64,000 nucleotides of DNA from Natrinema salsiterrestre (GTDB taxonomy: Archaea; Halobacteriota; Halobacteria; Halobacteriales; Natrialbaceae): contig NZ_JAMQOT010000005.1 in the NCBI RefSeq assembly GCF_029502005.1, forward strand, positions 62,001 to 126,000, given 5' to 3'. Position 1 is the first letter of the stretch. Each line of letters starts with the position of its first letter. A program made the position numbers and the translations under genes. Shown piece after piece: positions 5,478-51,662 of the stretch. Below the pieces are notes generated by a model that was not told the origin of the DNA, searched no databases, and was given only the letters and a program-made list of their open reading frames with translations.

Positions 5478-6545
5478 TCACTCGAGGCGATAGCGCAACA
5501 GCGCCGCGATCCCGCCGAGGTTCGACAGCTGCTGGCCGGGCGGGAACTCGCTCGAGAAGACCGTCACGTCGCCGCCCTTCTGCTCCGTCGTGCGGACGAT
5601 CTCGTCGACGCTGACGGCCCACTCCCCGTCCGGGCCGCGTTCCTTCTGCAAGCGATCGTCGAGCACGAGCAGGCGCTCGATCGCGCCGAACTCGGCGGCC
5701 TTCTTCACCTGTTCGGGGCCGTACGCCGCCTTCGCGCCCTCCGCGATCCGCCGGGTGAGGTCGTCGATGTACTCGGCCTCGCTCTCGATGCGGGTCTCCT
5801 CCTGAACGTCCGCGACGGCCCCGCGCTTGAGCACCTCGTGGACGCCGCGGTCGCCGACGGCCGCCGTGTCGACCATCGTGATCTGCTCGGCGACCTCGGG
5901 CTCGTTGTTCTCGAGGTGCTTGTAGGCGTCCTGCTTCGTGAAGCCGGGGCCGGCGAGGATGATCGCATCGACGTCGAGCCGTTTGAGGACCGTCGCGAGC
6001 TCTTCGAACAGCTCCGAGCGCCCGCGGGCGTACTCGCCTTTGCCGGTCGTGCCGGTGATCGTCGCCCGCTCCTCGGTGCCGTACTGGGCGACGGTGTGGA
6101 CGTGGGCCTGTCCCTCCTCGACGGTCGCGATCGCGACGTCCGGGTTCTCCGTGGCCTCTTCGGCTTCCTCGAGGCGGGCCGTCTGATCGGGCTTGAACCG
6201 CTTCTCGATCGAGATCTCCTCGCGTTCCTCCACGTTGAGCGTGTGGTGAAACCCGAGCTGGTCCTCGCGCGAGCAGGCGACGATCTCGCCGCCGACTCGC
6301 AGCCGATTGGCGAACTTGTGGAACTCGATGTCGTCGACGGCGATGGCGACCCACATGGGCTCGCGCTCGCCGCCCGTGTCCCGCATCTGGTCGTCGTTGC
6401 GCTGGATGCGCCGTGTCGTATCGCCCGCGACGCGGTCGCCGGGCTCGAGGACGTACTGCAGGTGCCAGAGGTCGTCGACGCTCTCGGGGACGACAGTGAC
6501 CCGTTCGCGCCCGCCCTCGACCTGCTCCCGGTCTTTGATCTGCAT
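5478..6545 (-). CDS. pelA: Pelota (Dom34), ribosome rescue / mRNA surveillance factor
   Basis: A 355-residue protein starting [12 protein letters not shown] at the ATG at 6545. An upstream in-frame extension to 6635 is not conserved-looking. It shows the pelota three-domain layout: an N-terminal Sm-like domain with [12 protein letters not shown] and the VAGDTTRRI signature, a central eRF1-like domain with [11 protein letters not shown], and a C-terminal domain with [12 protein letters not shown] and an ending around [11 protein letters not shown]. Archaeal pelota binds the empty A site of stalled ribosomes together with aEF1A and splits them with ABCE1. It converges with the upstream TrmB gene. 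A second stalled-ribosome factor, RqcH, lies 2 kb to the right on the same strand. Confidence 0.96.
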
Positions 6546-6652
6546 GGGCGGTCGTTCGCGGGGTGGCGGTAAGTGGACTGCGATCGGTACATGTCGCGGG
6601 GATCGAGATTCGCGACCTTTGTCAACAATCATCATAGTTAGGGACTGAGGGT

Positions 6653-7297
6653 ATGACCGCTGCGAACCTCCGTACGAGTATGAACCTCGGATACATCTCC
6701 CAGTTCGAAGACTTCGGCACGCGGTCGCTCGCGACCCACGCTATCATGGCGCTGACGTTTGCCGGTGCGGTCGTGACGGGACTGTTCGTCGGCGGCGATA
6801 TCGGCCTCGTCTCCTTCGTCGCGTTCCTCAACTTCACCGCCGGCGTCTGGGTCGCTCAGTCGATCCACTCTCTCGGGAACGCACGGACCGACGACTCGTA
6901 CAACGGAATCCTGTCCGTATTGTCGGATACGACCGGCGAGAAGGAGTTCCACGGGCTCGATACCGGGCGACTCGCCCGACTGCTCACGCTGATCGCGGCC
7001 GTCACGGCGGTCTCGCTGCTGGTCTCCGGACAGGTCCTCTCGGGCGCGGTGGCTTCGATCGGTGCCGTCGCGATCGGTGCCGTCGCCCTCGTGACCGCGA
7101 TGGTCGGCTTCCTGATCGCGATGGGATCGGCGTACGATGCGTCCGAACGCCGGACCGATCGTCGCGTCGAAGGCGACGGCGCCCGCATCGAACGGGATCA
7201 GCCCGACCGACCGACGACCGAGTTCGACGACGCTTCCGACATCCGCATCTCGATTCACGAGATGCACATGGACGACTCGCCAGCCAAACATCGGTAG
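6653..7297 (+). CDS. Integral membrane protein, unknown function
   Basis: A 214-residue protein. An N-terminal polar segment is followed by two close hydrophobic helices (about 28-50 and 53-73), a polar loop, two more (about 105-125 and 128-160), and a hydrophilic acidic tail of about 55 residues ending in [10 protein letters not shown]. This gives four predicted helices with a cytoplasmic tail. ATG codons at 6653 and 6680 are both possible starts; the first is preferred because it lies about 15-20 nt downstream of an AT-rich promoter-like stretch (CATAGTTA). It is divergent from pelota. I recognise no family. Confidence 0.75.
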
Positions 7298-7362
7298 CGA
7301 CGCCTCTCGGAATCCGGTTCGCTCTTTACTCGAGCTGTCGTCGCCCGAATCCTCGGCCGTCG

Positions 7363-7737
7363 TCAGGAGAGTTCCGCAGTGACGTCGGTCGAGGAGATCA
7401 TCCCGACGTAGTCGTCCTTCTCGACGACCGGCAGGTGGCCGATGCCGAGACCGGTCATCATCGCGGCGATCTCTTCGAGGTAGAGGTCCGGCGGCACGGT
7501 CTCGACGGACTCCGTCATCACCTCGCTGACCTGCACGTCGGTCGGGTCACGGCCCTCGGCGGCCACATCCACGAGGTCGGTGCTGGTGATGATCGACGGT
7601 GGATCCGTCGTCACGACTAGCGCGGTGATCTCCTCGTCGCGCATCACCGTCGCGGCCTCCTGAATCGTCGCCGTCTTCGAAACTGTCTCCAGCGGCGTCG
7701 ACATCACGTCCTCGACGCGGGTGCTGTTTGGTGACAT
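7363..7737 (-). CDS. CBS-domain pair protein
   Basis: A 124-residue protein beginning MSPNSTRVEDVM. It consists of two CBS motifs: the first around VMSTPLETVSKTATIQEAA to TSTDLVDV, and the second around VMTESVETVPPDLYLEE to SSTDVTAEL, each ending in the adenosine-binding (S/T)xxD pattern. Stand-alone CBS pairs bind AMP, ATP or SAM and act as sensors or partners for other enzymes. The ATG at 7737 is used rather than an upstream GTG at 7764 because the conserved part starts immediately. The partner protein cannot be inferred from the neighbours. Confidence 0.9.
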   Translation of the reverse strand: MSPNSTRVEDVMSTPLETVSKTATIQEAATVMRDEEITALVVTTDPPSIITSTDLVDVAAEGRDPTDVQVSEVMTESVETVPPDLYLEEIAAMMTGLGIGHLPVVEKDDYVGMISSTDVTAELS

Positions 7738-7821
7738 ACGCACTGATACAGCGACGACCACCATGGGTTTTGCCCTCTCTCTGCCGTCCGAAACGGCGGG
7801 CGGACCGTCGTCGATCCGGCG

Positions 7822-8115
7822 TCAGTCTCGGAGACCTTCGATCTTCTCCTTCGCTTTCTCGAGGCCGGACTCGAACGTGTCTTCGATCTCCTCGACTGAA
7901 CGTTCGACGTAGTGGACGCGCTGGCGGGGGACTCGGCGGACGACGTCGTTCCCGTCGTCGTCGGTACCGTACGCGAACAGCCAGTGGTCCTGAAAGTAAG
8001 CGATCCGGTCGTTGTCGACGGTGACTCGCTCGACGTCTTCCTCCGGCGTCCGGTAAACGACGGTCGCAGTGCCCAGTTCCGGCTCGGTCTCCGTGTCTGT
8101 ATCGATATCTACCAT
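7822..8115 (-). CDS. Conserved haloarchaeal protein, unknown function
   Basis: A 97-residue acidic soluble protein starting MVDIDTDTETEP at the ATG at 8115 (a GTG at 8130 adds five residues). It has a beta-rich middle (TATVVYRTPEEDVERV, DHWLFAYGT, VVRRVPRQRVHYV) followed by an amphipathic helix ending LEKAKEKIEGLRD. The pattern looks like a small single-domain fold with a C-terminal helix. I do not recognise it. It lies 84 bp upstream of the CBS gene on the same strand. Confidence 0.75.
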   Translation of the reverse strand: MVDIDTDTETEPELGTATVVYRTPEEDVERVTVDNDRIAYFQDHWLFAYGTDDDGNDVVRRVPRQRVHYVERSVEEIEDTFESGLEKAKEKIEGLRD

Positions 8116-8224
8116 GGACGGGTCGTCCACCGTCGCGCGTGTAGTCGTGGGCCCGGTAGTCGCAGCCTTCGCTCGAGACCCGAGCCGAGAAACGGCGTCC
8201 CGGAGAAACGAGTGCTACCGTCCG

Positions 8225-8476
8225 TCACCCGGACTCGGAGCCGCGCCGCGAATCGGGTCGGTCCTCCGCGTCGGCGTCGCGATCGCCCTCGTCGTCGGTC
8301 GGCGTCGGCTCGGCGCTCTCCGCCTGATACGGTTGCGTTCCGGGACCGAACGTCAGGAATACGACGACACCGATTATGAGCACGATCGCGACGACGAGGA
8401 CCATGCCGATGACGTCCGTCGCGTCGATTCCGCCGCCGAGGACGGCGGGGTGGAGTGTCTCGAGTGGGAGGGACAT
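8225..8476 (-). CDS. Small single-helix membrane protein
   Basis: An 83-residue protein: a short N-terminus, one strongly hydrophobic helix (about residues 22-43, VIGMVLVVAIVLIIGVVVFL), then a very acidic disordered tail (TDDEGDRDADAEDRPD). This predicts an N-out, C-in small membrane protein. The ATG at 8476 fits. No family is recognised. It could belong to the same minus-strand set as the two genes to its left, but the 109-bp gap suggests its own transcript end. Confidence 0.65.
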   Translation of the reverse strand: MSLPLETLHPAVLGGGIDATDVIGMVLVVAIVLIIGVVVFLTFGPGTQPYQAESAEPTPTDDEGDRDADAEDRPDSRRGSESG

Positions 8477-8593
8477 CGTCTCCCCTAGTCAGGGCGTACC
8501 GATCAGTGTTGGGCCGTCAATAGCGGGGGTCAGTCGGATCCCCGGCGGGCGAGTCGCGATGACTCGCGACGGTCGAACCGGTCTCCCGTCCGA

Positions 8594-48134: not shown

Positions 48135-49301
48135 ATGGACGACGATTCCGACCATCGGATCGAGACCAGATCCATCCACGCCGGCCAGGAACCCGACGCC
48201 GACACCGGCGCGCTGATGACGCCGATTCACGCGAACTCTACGTACGAGCAGGACGCCCCGGGGGACCACCGCGGCTACGAGTACTCGCGGACCGGTAACC
48301 CGACCCGAAGCGACCTCGAGGCGAACCTCGCGAGCCTCGAGAACGCCGCGTACGGGCGCGCCTTCGCCAGCGGGATGGCCTCGATCAACACCGTGCTCAA
48401 CCTGCTCGAGGCCGGCGATCACGTCGTCACCGGCAACGACGTCTACGGCGGTACCCACCGCATCTTCACGCAGGTCTACGAGGACTACGACCTCGAGTTC
48501 AGCTTCGTCGATATGACCGATCTCGACGAAATTGAGACGGCGTTCCGAGAGGAGACGGCGCTGCTCTGGCTCGAGACGCCGACGAACCCGCTCATGTCGA
48601 TCGTCGATATTTCGGGAGCGGCCGAGATCGCCCACGCTCACGACGCGCTCTGTGCGATCGACAACACGTTCGCGACGCCGTACCTGCAGCGACCGCTGGA
48701 CCTCGGCGCGGACATCGTCTCCCACTCGCTGACGAAGTATCTCGGCGGCCACTCCGACGTCGTGGGCGGGGCCTTACTCACGAACGATGAGGATCTGGAC
48801 GAGCGGCTGGGCTTCTATCAGAACTCCGTCGGCGCGACGCCCGGCCCCTTCGAGTCCTTCCTCGTCCTCCGCGGGACCAAGACGCTGCCCGTCCGGATGG
48901 ACCGCCACTGCGAGAACGCCCGGCGGATCGCGGGCTGGCTCGACGACCACCCCGACGTCGACCGCGTCTACTACCCCGGGCTCGAGTCCCATCCCGGCCA
49001 CGAGATCGCCGCCGAGCAGATGGACGACTTCGGCGGCATGCTGAGCTTCGAACTGGACGCGAGCCTCGAGGAGGCCAGCGAGGTCGTCTCGAACACCGAG
49101 GTGTTCACGCTCGCGGAGAGCCTCGGCGGGGTCGAGAGCCTGATCGAACAACCCGCGCCGATGACCCACGCCGCGATTCCGCGCGAAGAGCGGCTCGCGG
49201 CCGGCCTCTCGGACAGCCTGATCCGCGTCAGCGTCGGGATCGAGCACGTCGACGATCTGATCGCGGACCTCGAGGGCGCGATCGAAGCGGCGCTCTCGTA
49301 G
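48135..49301 (+). CDS. metB: Trans-sulfuration enzyme, cystathionine gamma-synthase/lyase type
   Basis: A 388-residue PLP enzyme of the Cys/Met metabolism family. The PLP lysine is K201 in [17 protein letters not shown]. Also present are [11 protein letters not shown] at the start, [23 protein letters not shown] and the C-terminal [13 protein letters not shown] with MTHAAIP. It makes or splits cystathionine, connecting cysteine, homocysteine and methionine. Synthase versus lyase versus sulfhydrylase cannot be settled from sequence here. A methionine synthase pair lies 7 kb to the left. Confidence 0.92.
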
Positions 49302-50297
49302 CTACTTCTTCCCTTCGCTGGCCATGTGGTAGCGGAGTATGGTTTCGAAGCCCTCGAGGTACGCGCCGATGTCGACGCTCTCGATGTCGGGCTCGAACCG
49401 GCTGGCGTTCTCGTACTCGGTTCGCCAGCGATCGAGGAAGTAGTCCTCGACGCCGGAGTCGCTGATCGCATCGACGACCGGGTCGATCGCGTCGTCGGTC
49501 GGCTGCTGCCGGATCGACCGGAGCTGCTCCCGTGAGATAATGTCACTTTCGAGCGCGTGGACGACGACGCCGGAGCACCAGTCGCCCTCGTCGAGTTCGC
49601 GCTTCCAGGTCGAGAGCCAGTTGCCGATACGGGCCATCCGTTCCGTTCGATCGATGACCTGCCGCAGCGAGGCGAGGTCGCTCGAGTCGAACGACGACGC
49701 GTTCGCGAGGTCGATGTCGGCGTAGACGAACATCAGCATGTTGCGGGCGTCGTACCGCCAGAGCGCCCGCTCCGAGACGAGACCGGGATGGCGATTCGCG
49801 AGGTACGAGTACTCGATCGCCTGGAGCGCCTGTCGGAGGTCGAACCGGAGCAGGTCCGCGAACTCGTCCGCGCGCGGTCCCGCGTCGTACGCCACTTCGA
49901 AGCGGTCCCAGAGATCCATTAGGAACCGAACCACGTCGCCGTCGACGGCGGATCGATCCGGGTCGGGACGGCGACCGTCGAACGGGATCGTCGCGAGTTC
50001 GTCGAACGTCGCCCGATCGGCGTGGCGTTCCGCGACGTCGTCCGCGACGACGATGTACATCGTCGCGATCAGCTTCGCGTCACGGACCGTCCGACTCCGG
50101 TCGGCGTCGACGCACGACAGCCGAAACGACGGAAACAGGTGATAGAGCCAGCGCCAGAGGAATCGATCCCTGTCGCCGACGGTTTCCTCGTACGTATCGA
50201 TCAACGGAACGACCGTCTCGGGGAGTCCCTGCTGCCGAACGGCAGCGAGCTGCGCATCGTCGTCCTCGAGCAGTGGCACCTGAACCTCGTTTTGCAT
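49302..50297 (-). CDS. Class I terpene synthase-like protein
   Basis: A 331-residue all-alpha protein with no signal peptide. It carries the set of class I terpene cyclase signatures at the usual positions: an Asp-rich DDVAE (86-90) after a hydrophobic helix; an NSE-type triad NWLSTWKRE with N226, T230 and E234; an R-Y pair (R322, Y323) near the C-terminus; and an arginine/aspartate pair (R181, D183) about 45 residues before the triad, where the diphosphate sensor lies in bacterial enzymes. Length equals bacterial sesqui- and diterpene cyclases. This predicts cyclisation of a prenyl diphosphate. It may alternatively be a diverged isoprenoid-fold protein with other substrates. It converges with metB (stop codons adjacent) and shares a divergent promoter with an MBL gene. 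Confidence 0.7.
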   Translation of the reverse strand: MQNEVQVPLLEDDDAQLAAVRQQGLPETVVPLIDTYEETVGDRDRFLWRWLYHLFPSFRLSCVDADRSRTVRDAKLIATMYIVVADDVAERHADRATFDELATIPFDGRRPDPDRSAVDGDVVRFLMDLWDRFEVAYDAGPRADEFADLLRFDLRQALQAIEYSYLANRHPGLVSERALWRYDARNMLMFVYADIDLANASSFDSSDLASLRQVIDRTERMARIGNWLSTWKRELDEGDWCSGVVVHALESDIISREQLRSIRQQPTDDAIDPVVDAISDSGVEDYFLDRWRTEYENASRFEPDIESVDIGAYLEGFETILRYHMASEGKK

Positions 50298-50352
50298 CGC
50301 GCTCGACTACATAGCCGATGGTAATAAAACGAATGTAATTAAATTGCTTACG

Positions 50353-50439: not shown

Positions 50440-51117
50440 ATGCAGAACGATGCCGGCGTTCACACGCTCCCGATTACGGTCGAATACGACGACAGAGAGA
50501 TCACGGTCACCCCGACGGCCGTCGAGACCGATCGCGGACTCGTATTGATCGACGCGGGTCCCCAGGGTGCCGTGGGCGGCCTCGAGACGCATCTCCGATC
50601 ACTGGGATACGAGCTGACGGACGTCTGGCTGGTGATTTTGACCCACCACGACGCGGACCACGCCGGCGGTCTCGCGGCCCTGCTCGAGAGAGTCGATGCG
50701 ATCGTCGCAACCCATCGCGACGAATCGGCGTACGTCTCGGGCGAGACGGAACCGATCAAGGGCGACGGTGACCGATATCCGCCGGCCGACGTCGATATCG
50801 AACTGGCCGATGGGGTCCGGTTCCCGACGCTCGCGGGACCGATGGAGGTCGTCGCGACGCCCGGCCACTCGCCCGGGCACGTTTCGCTGTACTTCCCGGA
50901 CGGGTCGTTGCTCGTCGCCGGCGATGCCCTCGTCGCGGACGGAGCGGAGCCGCTCGACGGTCCGAAACCCCACTTCACGCCCGACATGGACCGCGCCGTC
51001 GAATCGCTCGGGACGCTGGCCCAACTCGAGATCGAGCACACCGTCTGCTATCACGGCGGGTACGTCGACCGGGGAACCGAACGAATCCGAGAGATACGCG
51101 AGCAGTTGGCGGAGTGA
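50440..51117 (+). CDS. MBL-fold metallo-hydrolase (glyoxalase II-like)
   Basis: A 225-residue protein starting MQNDAGVHTLPITVEYDD at the ATG at 50440. The MBL zinc motif is THHDADHAGG (HxHxDH near residue 68), with further ligands in TPGHSPGHVSLYF, LVAGDALVADG and CYHGGYV. The TPGHSPGH motif is typical of glyoxalase II and quorum-quenching-type hydrolases. The substrate is unknown. It is divergent from the terpene-synthase-like gene. Confidence 0.9.
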   Translation: MQNDAGVHTLPITVEYDDREITVTPTAVETDRGLVLIDAGPQGAVGGLETHLRSLGYELTDVWLVILTHHDADHAGGLAALLERVDAIVATHRDESAYVSGETEPIKGDGDRYPPADVDIELADGVRFPTLAGPMEVVATPGHSPGHVSLYFPDGSLLVAGDALVADGAEPLDGPKPHFTPDMDRAVESLGTLAQLEIEHTVCYHGGYVDRGTERIREIREQLAE

Positions 51118-51227: not shown

Positions 51228-51662
51228 ATGCGAATCGAACTCCGCGTCTGTCAGCACTGTCTCAACGGTGAGCACGGCAACGAGCGTCGGACCGCCCTCC
51301 TCAACGACATGGTCGACTGCGCCGAGCAGATCAAGGAGTACAAGGAGGTAATCGACCTCGACGAGGTACACATCCGCAAGGTCAGGGACGACGAGCCGGG
51401 GAAGCCCGCAGCCCTGCCGGTCGTCTCGGCGACGATTCAGAACGACCAGGTCGTCCTGAACGATACCCAGCTCGTCGCGGAGGGACAGGACGGGAACATG
51501 CTGGTCTACACCAGTCCCGACGACGTGGTGACGGTCCTCGCGGGGAACCTGGACGAAATCAGTAAAGCGGTTACCGAGGACGTGACGGTCGATCTCTCCC
51601 CGGTCGGTGCGGAGATCGTCTCGGAGGCCGATCTGGGAGCGAATCGGGATCGAGATCGATAA
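51228..51662 (+). CDS. Conserved haloarchaeal protein with CxxC motif
   Basis: A 144-residue acidic protein starting MRIELRVCQHCLNGEHGNERR at the ATG at 51228. A CxxC (C8, C11) is followed by a histidine and a third cysteine in MVDCAEQI, which could form a metal site. The remainder is a mixed alpha/beta fold (VVSATIQNDQVVLNDTQLVAEG, MLVYTSPDDVVTVLAGNLDEI). No membrane segment is visible. I do not recognise the family. Confidence 0.75.
   Translation: MRIELRVCQHCLNGEHGNERRTALLNDMVDCAEQIKEYKEVIDLDEVHIRKVRDDEPGKPAALPVVSATIQNDQVVLNDTQLVAEGQDGNMLVYTSPDDVVTVLAGNLDEISKAVTEDVTVDLSPVGAEIVSEADLGANRDRDR

Follow-up and report, generated by a model that had tools for sequence, protein, structure and literature searches.

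The window, a 64,000-nucleotide stretch of the 4.79 Mb genome of Natrinema salsiterrestre, carries a terpene synthase-like gene flanked by one convergent and one divergent gene. The features are as follows.

49302..50297, minus strand (read 50297..49302): terpene synthase-like coding sequence, 331 aa, ATG start, single open reading frame
50321..50329, minus strand: TATA-box-like TTTTATTAC, -32 to -24 from the ATG, conserved among congeners
48135-49301, convergent: PLP-dependent cystathionine-lyase-type gene, named from its own sequence
50440..51117, plus strand: metallo-beta-lactamase-fold hydrolase gene (PF00753, E 1.5e-25), divergent neighbour

The earlier note had the extent of the gene and its 331 residues right; the strand is minus. 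Its stop codon abuts that of the convergent cystathionine-lyase-type gene, and at the other end it shares an intergenic region with the hydrolase gene. The AT-rich promoter of its own that had been proposed is there: TTTTATTAC is kept as (T)TTTATTAC at the same distance from the ATG in all seven nearest congeners checked (L038-L040 and L042-L045). The conserved position suggests that TTTTATTAC is the TATA box of a leaderless haloarchaeal promoter. An orthologue in a congener is 93% identical to the window protein. Against four congeners the dN/dS of the gene is 0.20-0.31, and the gene is under purifying selection.

Within the Natrinema/Natrialba clade the hydrolase gene is a recurrent partner of the synthase. 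Of its 34 occurrences 33 are at position -1, and it is invariably on the strand opposite to the synthase, across 16 groups defined by synthase identity. A number of small conserved genes and the cystathionine-lyase-type gene are also kept nearby, and this conserved chromosomal setting rules out contamination or recent transfer in the window clade. A prophage or plasmid origin was likewise rejected: there was no phage match and just six plasmid matches, all haloarchaeal, in records that label the family members ‘hypothetical protein’. Two genes upstream of the synthase, at 51228-51662 on the plus strand, lies a gene for a 144-aa protein without a Pfam match that is also kept in this clade.

Three stretches of the coding sequence bear on what the protein might do.

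50028..50042, minus strand: Asp-rich motif DDVAE, codons 86-90, at the end of helix 65-90, predicted Mg2+ ligands
49596..49622, minus strand: NSE-type triad NWLSTWKRE (N226, T230, E234), codons 226-234, in helix 205-236
49728..49760, minus strand: codons 180-190, with breaks between helices 176-181, 183-187 and 189-198 (predicted model and alignment)

The gene had been said to encode the full set of four class I terpene synthase signatures. We counted residues over 134 non-redundant relatives, and the two metal-binding motifs proved near-invariant. In the Asp-rich motif D86 is kept in 129/134, D87 in all 134 and E90 in 113, with Asp in another 20, so that an acidic residue stands there in 133. 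In the triad N226 is kept in 133/134, T230 in 132 (Ser in the other two) and E234 in 133. The whole pattern, DDxx(D/E) with Nxxx(S/T)xxxE, is found in 129/134, and the metal-ligand positions are kept in that number down to about 25-30% identity. This conservation shows that the motifs are not chance; together with a dN/dS of 0.2-0.3 it rules out a fortuitous match in a GC-rich reading frame. The exceptions are a clade with N-D-x-x-D (L092, L093 and L206), one sequence with E-D-x-x-E (L165) and L203, which has an internal stop and is likely a pseudogene.

The other two signatures are present in the window protein but fared differently in its relatives. R181 is kept in only 48/134, and position 183 has Asp in 78 sequences and Glu in another 19; at the C-terminus R322 is kept in 36/134 and Y323 in 71/134. 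This lack of conservation means that R181 and the R322-Y323 pair are not features of the family, and the ‘full set’ reduces to the two metal motifs. The helix breaks at 180-190 correspond in position to the G-helix break of terpene synthases, and at 182-188 the family has the consensus Y-D-x-H-N-M where the conserved sensor Arg would be. Other basic residues are near-invariant: R233 (133/134), R43, R212 and R223. D239, which comes after the triad, is likewise kept in 133/134.

An AlphaFold model of the window protein, based on a 61-sequence alignment, had a pLDDT of 92.8 and a pTM of 0.91 and was all-alpha, as had been claimed. In a Foldseek search of the PDB with this model the best matches were the diterpene synthase VenA (E 5.7e-5), T-muurolol synthase (TM 0.58/0.62), the N-domain of geosmin synthase and aristolochene synthase; prenyl diphosphate synthases ranked below them. 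A relative about 30% identical to the window protein (L172) was modelled separately (pLDDT 96.1) and at E<=0.001 matched terpene synthases only: AtTPS18 and abietadiene, hydropyrene, isoprene, taxadiene and aristolochene synthases, with the plant enzymes best. A fold other than that of isoprenoid synthases would have spoken against the original proposal; both models show the class I isoprenoid synthase fold. The TM-scores of 0.5-0.6 indicate a divergent branch. The motif-bearing helices 65-90 and 205-236 are consistent with terpene synthase helices D and H, and the geometry of the putative metal site is read from these helices in the predicted model.

Sequence comparison placed the family near terpene synthases. 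The profile search that had been recommended gave a divided answer: the window protein scores 18.0 bits against Pfam Terpene_syn_C_2 (PF19086), below the curated cut-off of 23.7, while relatives in about 28 genomes exceed it, the best with 35.5 bits. PF19086 is over the cut-off in 29/194 haloarchaeal genomes, and by position all of these matches except that in Actinarchaeum are members of this family. Among 61 members, 50 match PF19086 (best 1.7e-7) and 14 match PF03936 weakly (best 0.0012). Searches with the window protein gave no match in NCBIfam and, among PDB sequences, none to a terpene synthase. We used profile alignments because single-sequence hhalign against a terpene synthase, a GGPP-synthase-type protein and a phytoene synthase was uninformative. 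The family aligned with 11 bacterial-type terpene synthases at E 1.2e-4 over 227 columns (probability 55%), and the triad and the Gly-Asp that follows it fell in register. Against seven polyprenyl synthases the alignment was not significant (E 0.17, 37 columns); even the bacterial terpene synthases give no better than E 0.0019 when compared with the polyprenyl synthases.

These comparisons bear on whether the protein could instead be a prenyltransferase, either chain-elongating or head-to-head. Some prenyl diphosphate synthases do appear among the fold matches, but the family has no polyprenyl synthase profile similarity, and the second Asp-rich DDxxD of polyprenyl diphosphate synthases is missing, with NxxxTxxxE occupying the second site. 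The window protein matches neither PF00348 nor PF00494, and the host genome already has three genes of the first family and two of the second, a set that speaks for a supply of prenyl diphosphates; there is a single weak PF00494 match (E 0.036), in the relative L177. We regard a prenyltransferase as scarcely tenable. We have high confidence that the product of the window gene is a class I terpene synthase of a divergent kind, and the earlier suggestion of an undescribed branch of class I terpene synthase-like proteins is upheld by the predicted fold and the conserved metal motifs.

The family was found to be widespread. With one query it was present in 51/125 genomes of the host’s taxonomic family and in 120/391 Halobacteria genomes (about 31%), spread over 39/86 genera, so the earlier statement that such proteins are rare in archaea does not hold for haloarchaea. 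A profile search added members from the methanogen side of the phylum. We also searched for the peptide pattern IGNW[IVL][TSA]TW across 84,980 species genomes and confirmed 98 relatives, of which 80 were kept. These were almost all haloarchaeal, with a few contigs from metagenome bins labelled Methanohalobium, an archaeon, Anaerolineae, ‘Lysobacteraceae’ (30% GC) and a bacterium. In the midpoint-rooted tree, for which we claim no polarity, a single group of 123 rows with good support takes in the haloarchaeal sequences and separates them from those of methanogens and metagenomes. Haloarchaea inherit the family stably. Some genomes have two or three copies, as a tandem pair in one case (L055). 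Stop-interrupted copies occur in methanogen-side genomes (L203 at 7698-8480; C55 and C231 of G617; C57 of G539), which suggests repeated loss there.

The family is absent from NCBIfam, and we found no description of it in the open-access literature that we covered. The class I terpene synthase reviews examined there treat plants, fungi and bacteria, and bring in archaea solely for precursor supply.

The genes around the synthase showed a pattern of their own. We compiled 99 non-redundant loci, counted as signalling genes those with PAS, GAF, Bat-type HTH, HalOD1, FilR1-like or HATPase domains, and took as background the genes lying further out in these loci. Signalling genes made up 81/384 (21%) of genes within two positions of the synthase and 16/544 (3%) of those at four or more (Fisher p 2.6e-19, uncorrected for shared ancestry). 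When loci were merged at 60% synthase identity (49 clusters) p was 1e-5, at 50% (25 clusters) it was 0.008, and at 45% (14 clusters), where power is lost, 0.125. The linkage is seen in 50/99 loci, and of 44 long Bat-like genes in the flanking regions 40 are no more than two genes away from the synthase. This association, far above chance, holds outside the core of the Natrialbaceae; the window lineage is without such a neighbour and has the metallo-beta-lactamase-fold partner in its place.

The arrangement differs between lineages. In Haloarcula and its relatives a Bat-like gene, a HalOD1 gene and the synthase stand in line, and in Halorubrum, Halobellus and Halogeometricum the Bat-like and HalOD1 genes are divergent from the synthase. 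In some non-core Natrialbaceae and others a FilR1-like regulator gene and then a HalOD1 gene come after the synthase. Four-bp overlaps with the synthase gene are made by the regulator in L058, L060, L061 and L111 and by a FIST protein gene, at the synthase start, in L167. A 7TM histidine kinase lies 29 bp downstream of the synthase in L177, another directly after it in L172, and PAS kinases stand by the synthase in the Methanohalobium loci. Neither a P450 nor any other tailoring gene was recurrent in the haloarchaeal loci, which disposes of a classical terpene cluster and counts against the terpene synthase reading.

Two further loci stood out. In one (L092, 8494-10092) a synthase-like gene belonging to the N-D-x-x-D clade is followed, 79 bp downstream, by the gene of a protoglobin-MCP transducer of the HemAT type. 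In the other (L172, 195-5058, 30% GC) a methyltransferase, the synthase, a 7TM kinase and a polyprenyl synthase follow one another in a row. This is plausibly a terpene locus, and its ‘Lysobacteraceae’ bin is probably wrong.

The signalling neighbours can be read in a modest or a bold way. The modest reading is sensory control of an isoprenoid gene. Published work on Halobacterium puts bop and brp under the control of Bat, which is located close to the phytoene synthase gene crtB1 (PMC2253796). In the window’s own genome a Bat-like PAS-GAF-HTH gene (L210, 3-1355) lies 20 bp upstream of a phytoene synthase gene (1375-2415). It is this tie between Bat and pigment genes that makes sensory control the modest reading.

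The bold reading is a synthase-receptor module resembling LuxI/LuxR, in which a diffusible terpenoid would be detected by the neighbouring Bat-like, FilR1-like or histidine kinase protein. The concentration of signalling genes next to the synthase, robust at 60% merging and weaker at 50%, would fit this, as would the unrelated regulators found at the same site in different lineages, some overlapping by 4 bp or 29 bp away. Mere regulation of the synthase gene would give the same pattern, however, as with Bat and its targets, the enrichment has a p of 0.125 at 45% clustering, and the window lineage has no signalling neighbour. We think such a module rather improbable. The fuller version, an old archaeal synthase subfamily in sensor-coupled modules whose own terpenoid is the signal for the neighbouring Bat-like, FilR1-like, 7TM/PAS histidine kinase or FIST protein, is slightly more doubtful.

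A protein that keeps the fold without catalysis, and binds or senses prenyl diphosphates on behalf of adjacent regulators, could also explain the association with signalling genes, and it would suit such a protein that sensor Arg and RY pair have been lost. But the metal ligands are kept in 129/134, which would not be expected of a mere binding protein, and the window lineage has no regulator beside the gene for such a protein to serve. This makes a non-catalytic role very improbable.

For a catalytic class I terpene synthase the nature of the product matters. The enzyme might ionise a prenyl diphosphate and release a linear product, an alcohol of the linalool, nerolidol or geranyllinalool type or an acyclic diene. 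The motifs cannot separate cyclising from non-cyclising synthases, and the fold matches include a linalool/nerolidol synthase as well as isoprene synthase. Nothing decisive stands against a linear product, but the majority of known class I terpene synthases that have this fold are cyclases. A linear product thus seems possible though unlikely, and a cyclic one is probable.

The catalysis, substrate, product and regulation that we infer would fit together as follows. Polyprenyl synthases of the same genome would supply FPP or GGPP. By analogy with the superfamily, DDVAE and N226/T230/E234 would bind three Mg2+ that hold the prenyl diphosphate, whose ionisation would be triggered and the diphosphate released. 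R233, with R43, R212 and R223, may replace the sensor Arg and the RY pair in diphosphate binding. The hydrophobic helical cavity would steer the carbocation until it is quenched, giving a small and probably cyclic terpene, either a hydrocarbon or an alcohol. In many lineages an adjacent sensory regulator probably sets expression of the synthase; in the window lineage the gene has a promoter of its own and the divergent metallo-beta-lactamase-fold partner. Taken jointly, a divergent class I terpene synthase that is under sensory regulation and whose product is probably cyclic seems to us likely.

On our analysis the family is a divergent, widespread and unannotated class I terpene synthase subfamily, probably active on FPP or GGPP and giving a small terpenoid. 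If its members are terpene synthases, many archaea make terpenoids beyond carotenoids, squalene and membrane lipids. The family occurs in roughly one third of the haloarchaeal genomes surveyed, often by sensor or regulator genes, so archaea may make regulated terpenoids. If the sensor-coupled reading is true, this would be an archaeal chemical signalling system built on terpenes. The linkage to sensors makes the purpose of the terpenoid directly testable in culturable species, and the combination of conserved metal motifs with different diphosphate-recognition residues offers a test of which induced-fit parts are dispensable.

The closest known systems are the bacterial class I terpene synthases such as VenA, T-muurolol synthase and the geosmin synthase N-domain. 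The archaeal family shares with them the predicted all-alpha fold, DDxx(D/E), the length, and Nxxx(S/T)xxxE followed four to five residues on by Gly-(Asp/Glu), to which D239 corresponds. R233, beside the triad Glu, stands where the bacterial enzymes have Lys or Arg. Identity is about 15%, however, and the residue after the triad Asn is Trp in place of the bacterial Asp, within a motif specific to the archaeal family, MARIGNW(L/I)(S/T)TW(E/K)RE. The family also has Y-D-x-H-N-M at the helix break and a conserved C-terminal YHxAS-x-G-x-K. It lacks the conserved sensor Arg, canonically about 46 residues before the triad, and the RY pair that is invariant in 11/11 of the canonical bacterial-type enzymes aligned. 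Unlike the bacterial enzymes, it has signalling neighbours and no tailoring gene cluster. In comparison with the metal-binding domain of plant terpene synthases (PF03936), it is a single alpha domain, with no beta or gamma domains. With the PF00348 and PF00494 enzymes it shares the general class I fold and the first Asp-rich motif.

Haloarchaea also contain canonical bacterial-type synthases of the same superfamily, in Actinarchaeum halophilum (L226, 3886-5277 on the minus strand and 6016-7437 on the plus strand) and Halocatena marina (L227, 5010-6449, plus strand). These species are hypha-forming haloarchaea or relatives of such. Their synthases, annotated merely as ‘SRPBCC family protein’ or ‘hypothetical protein’, are fused to SRPBCC, plasmid-borne and beside polyprenyl synthases, in Actinarchaeum as two divergently oriented synthase-polyprenyl synthase pairs. 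They have the canonical Asn-Asp start of the NSE motif and the RY pair, score 169 bits against PF19086 in Actinarchaeum, and clearly form a group separate from the widespread haloarchaeal family.
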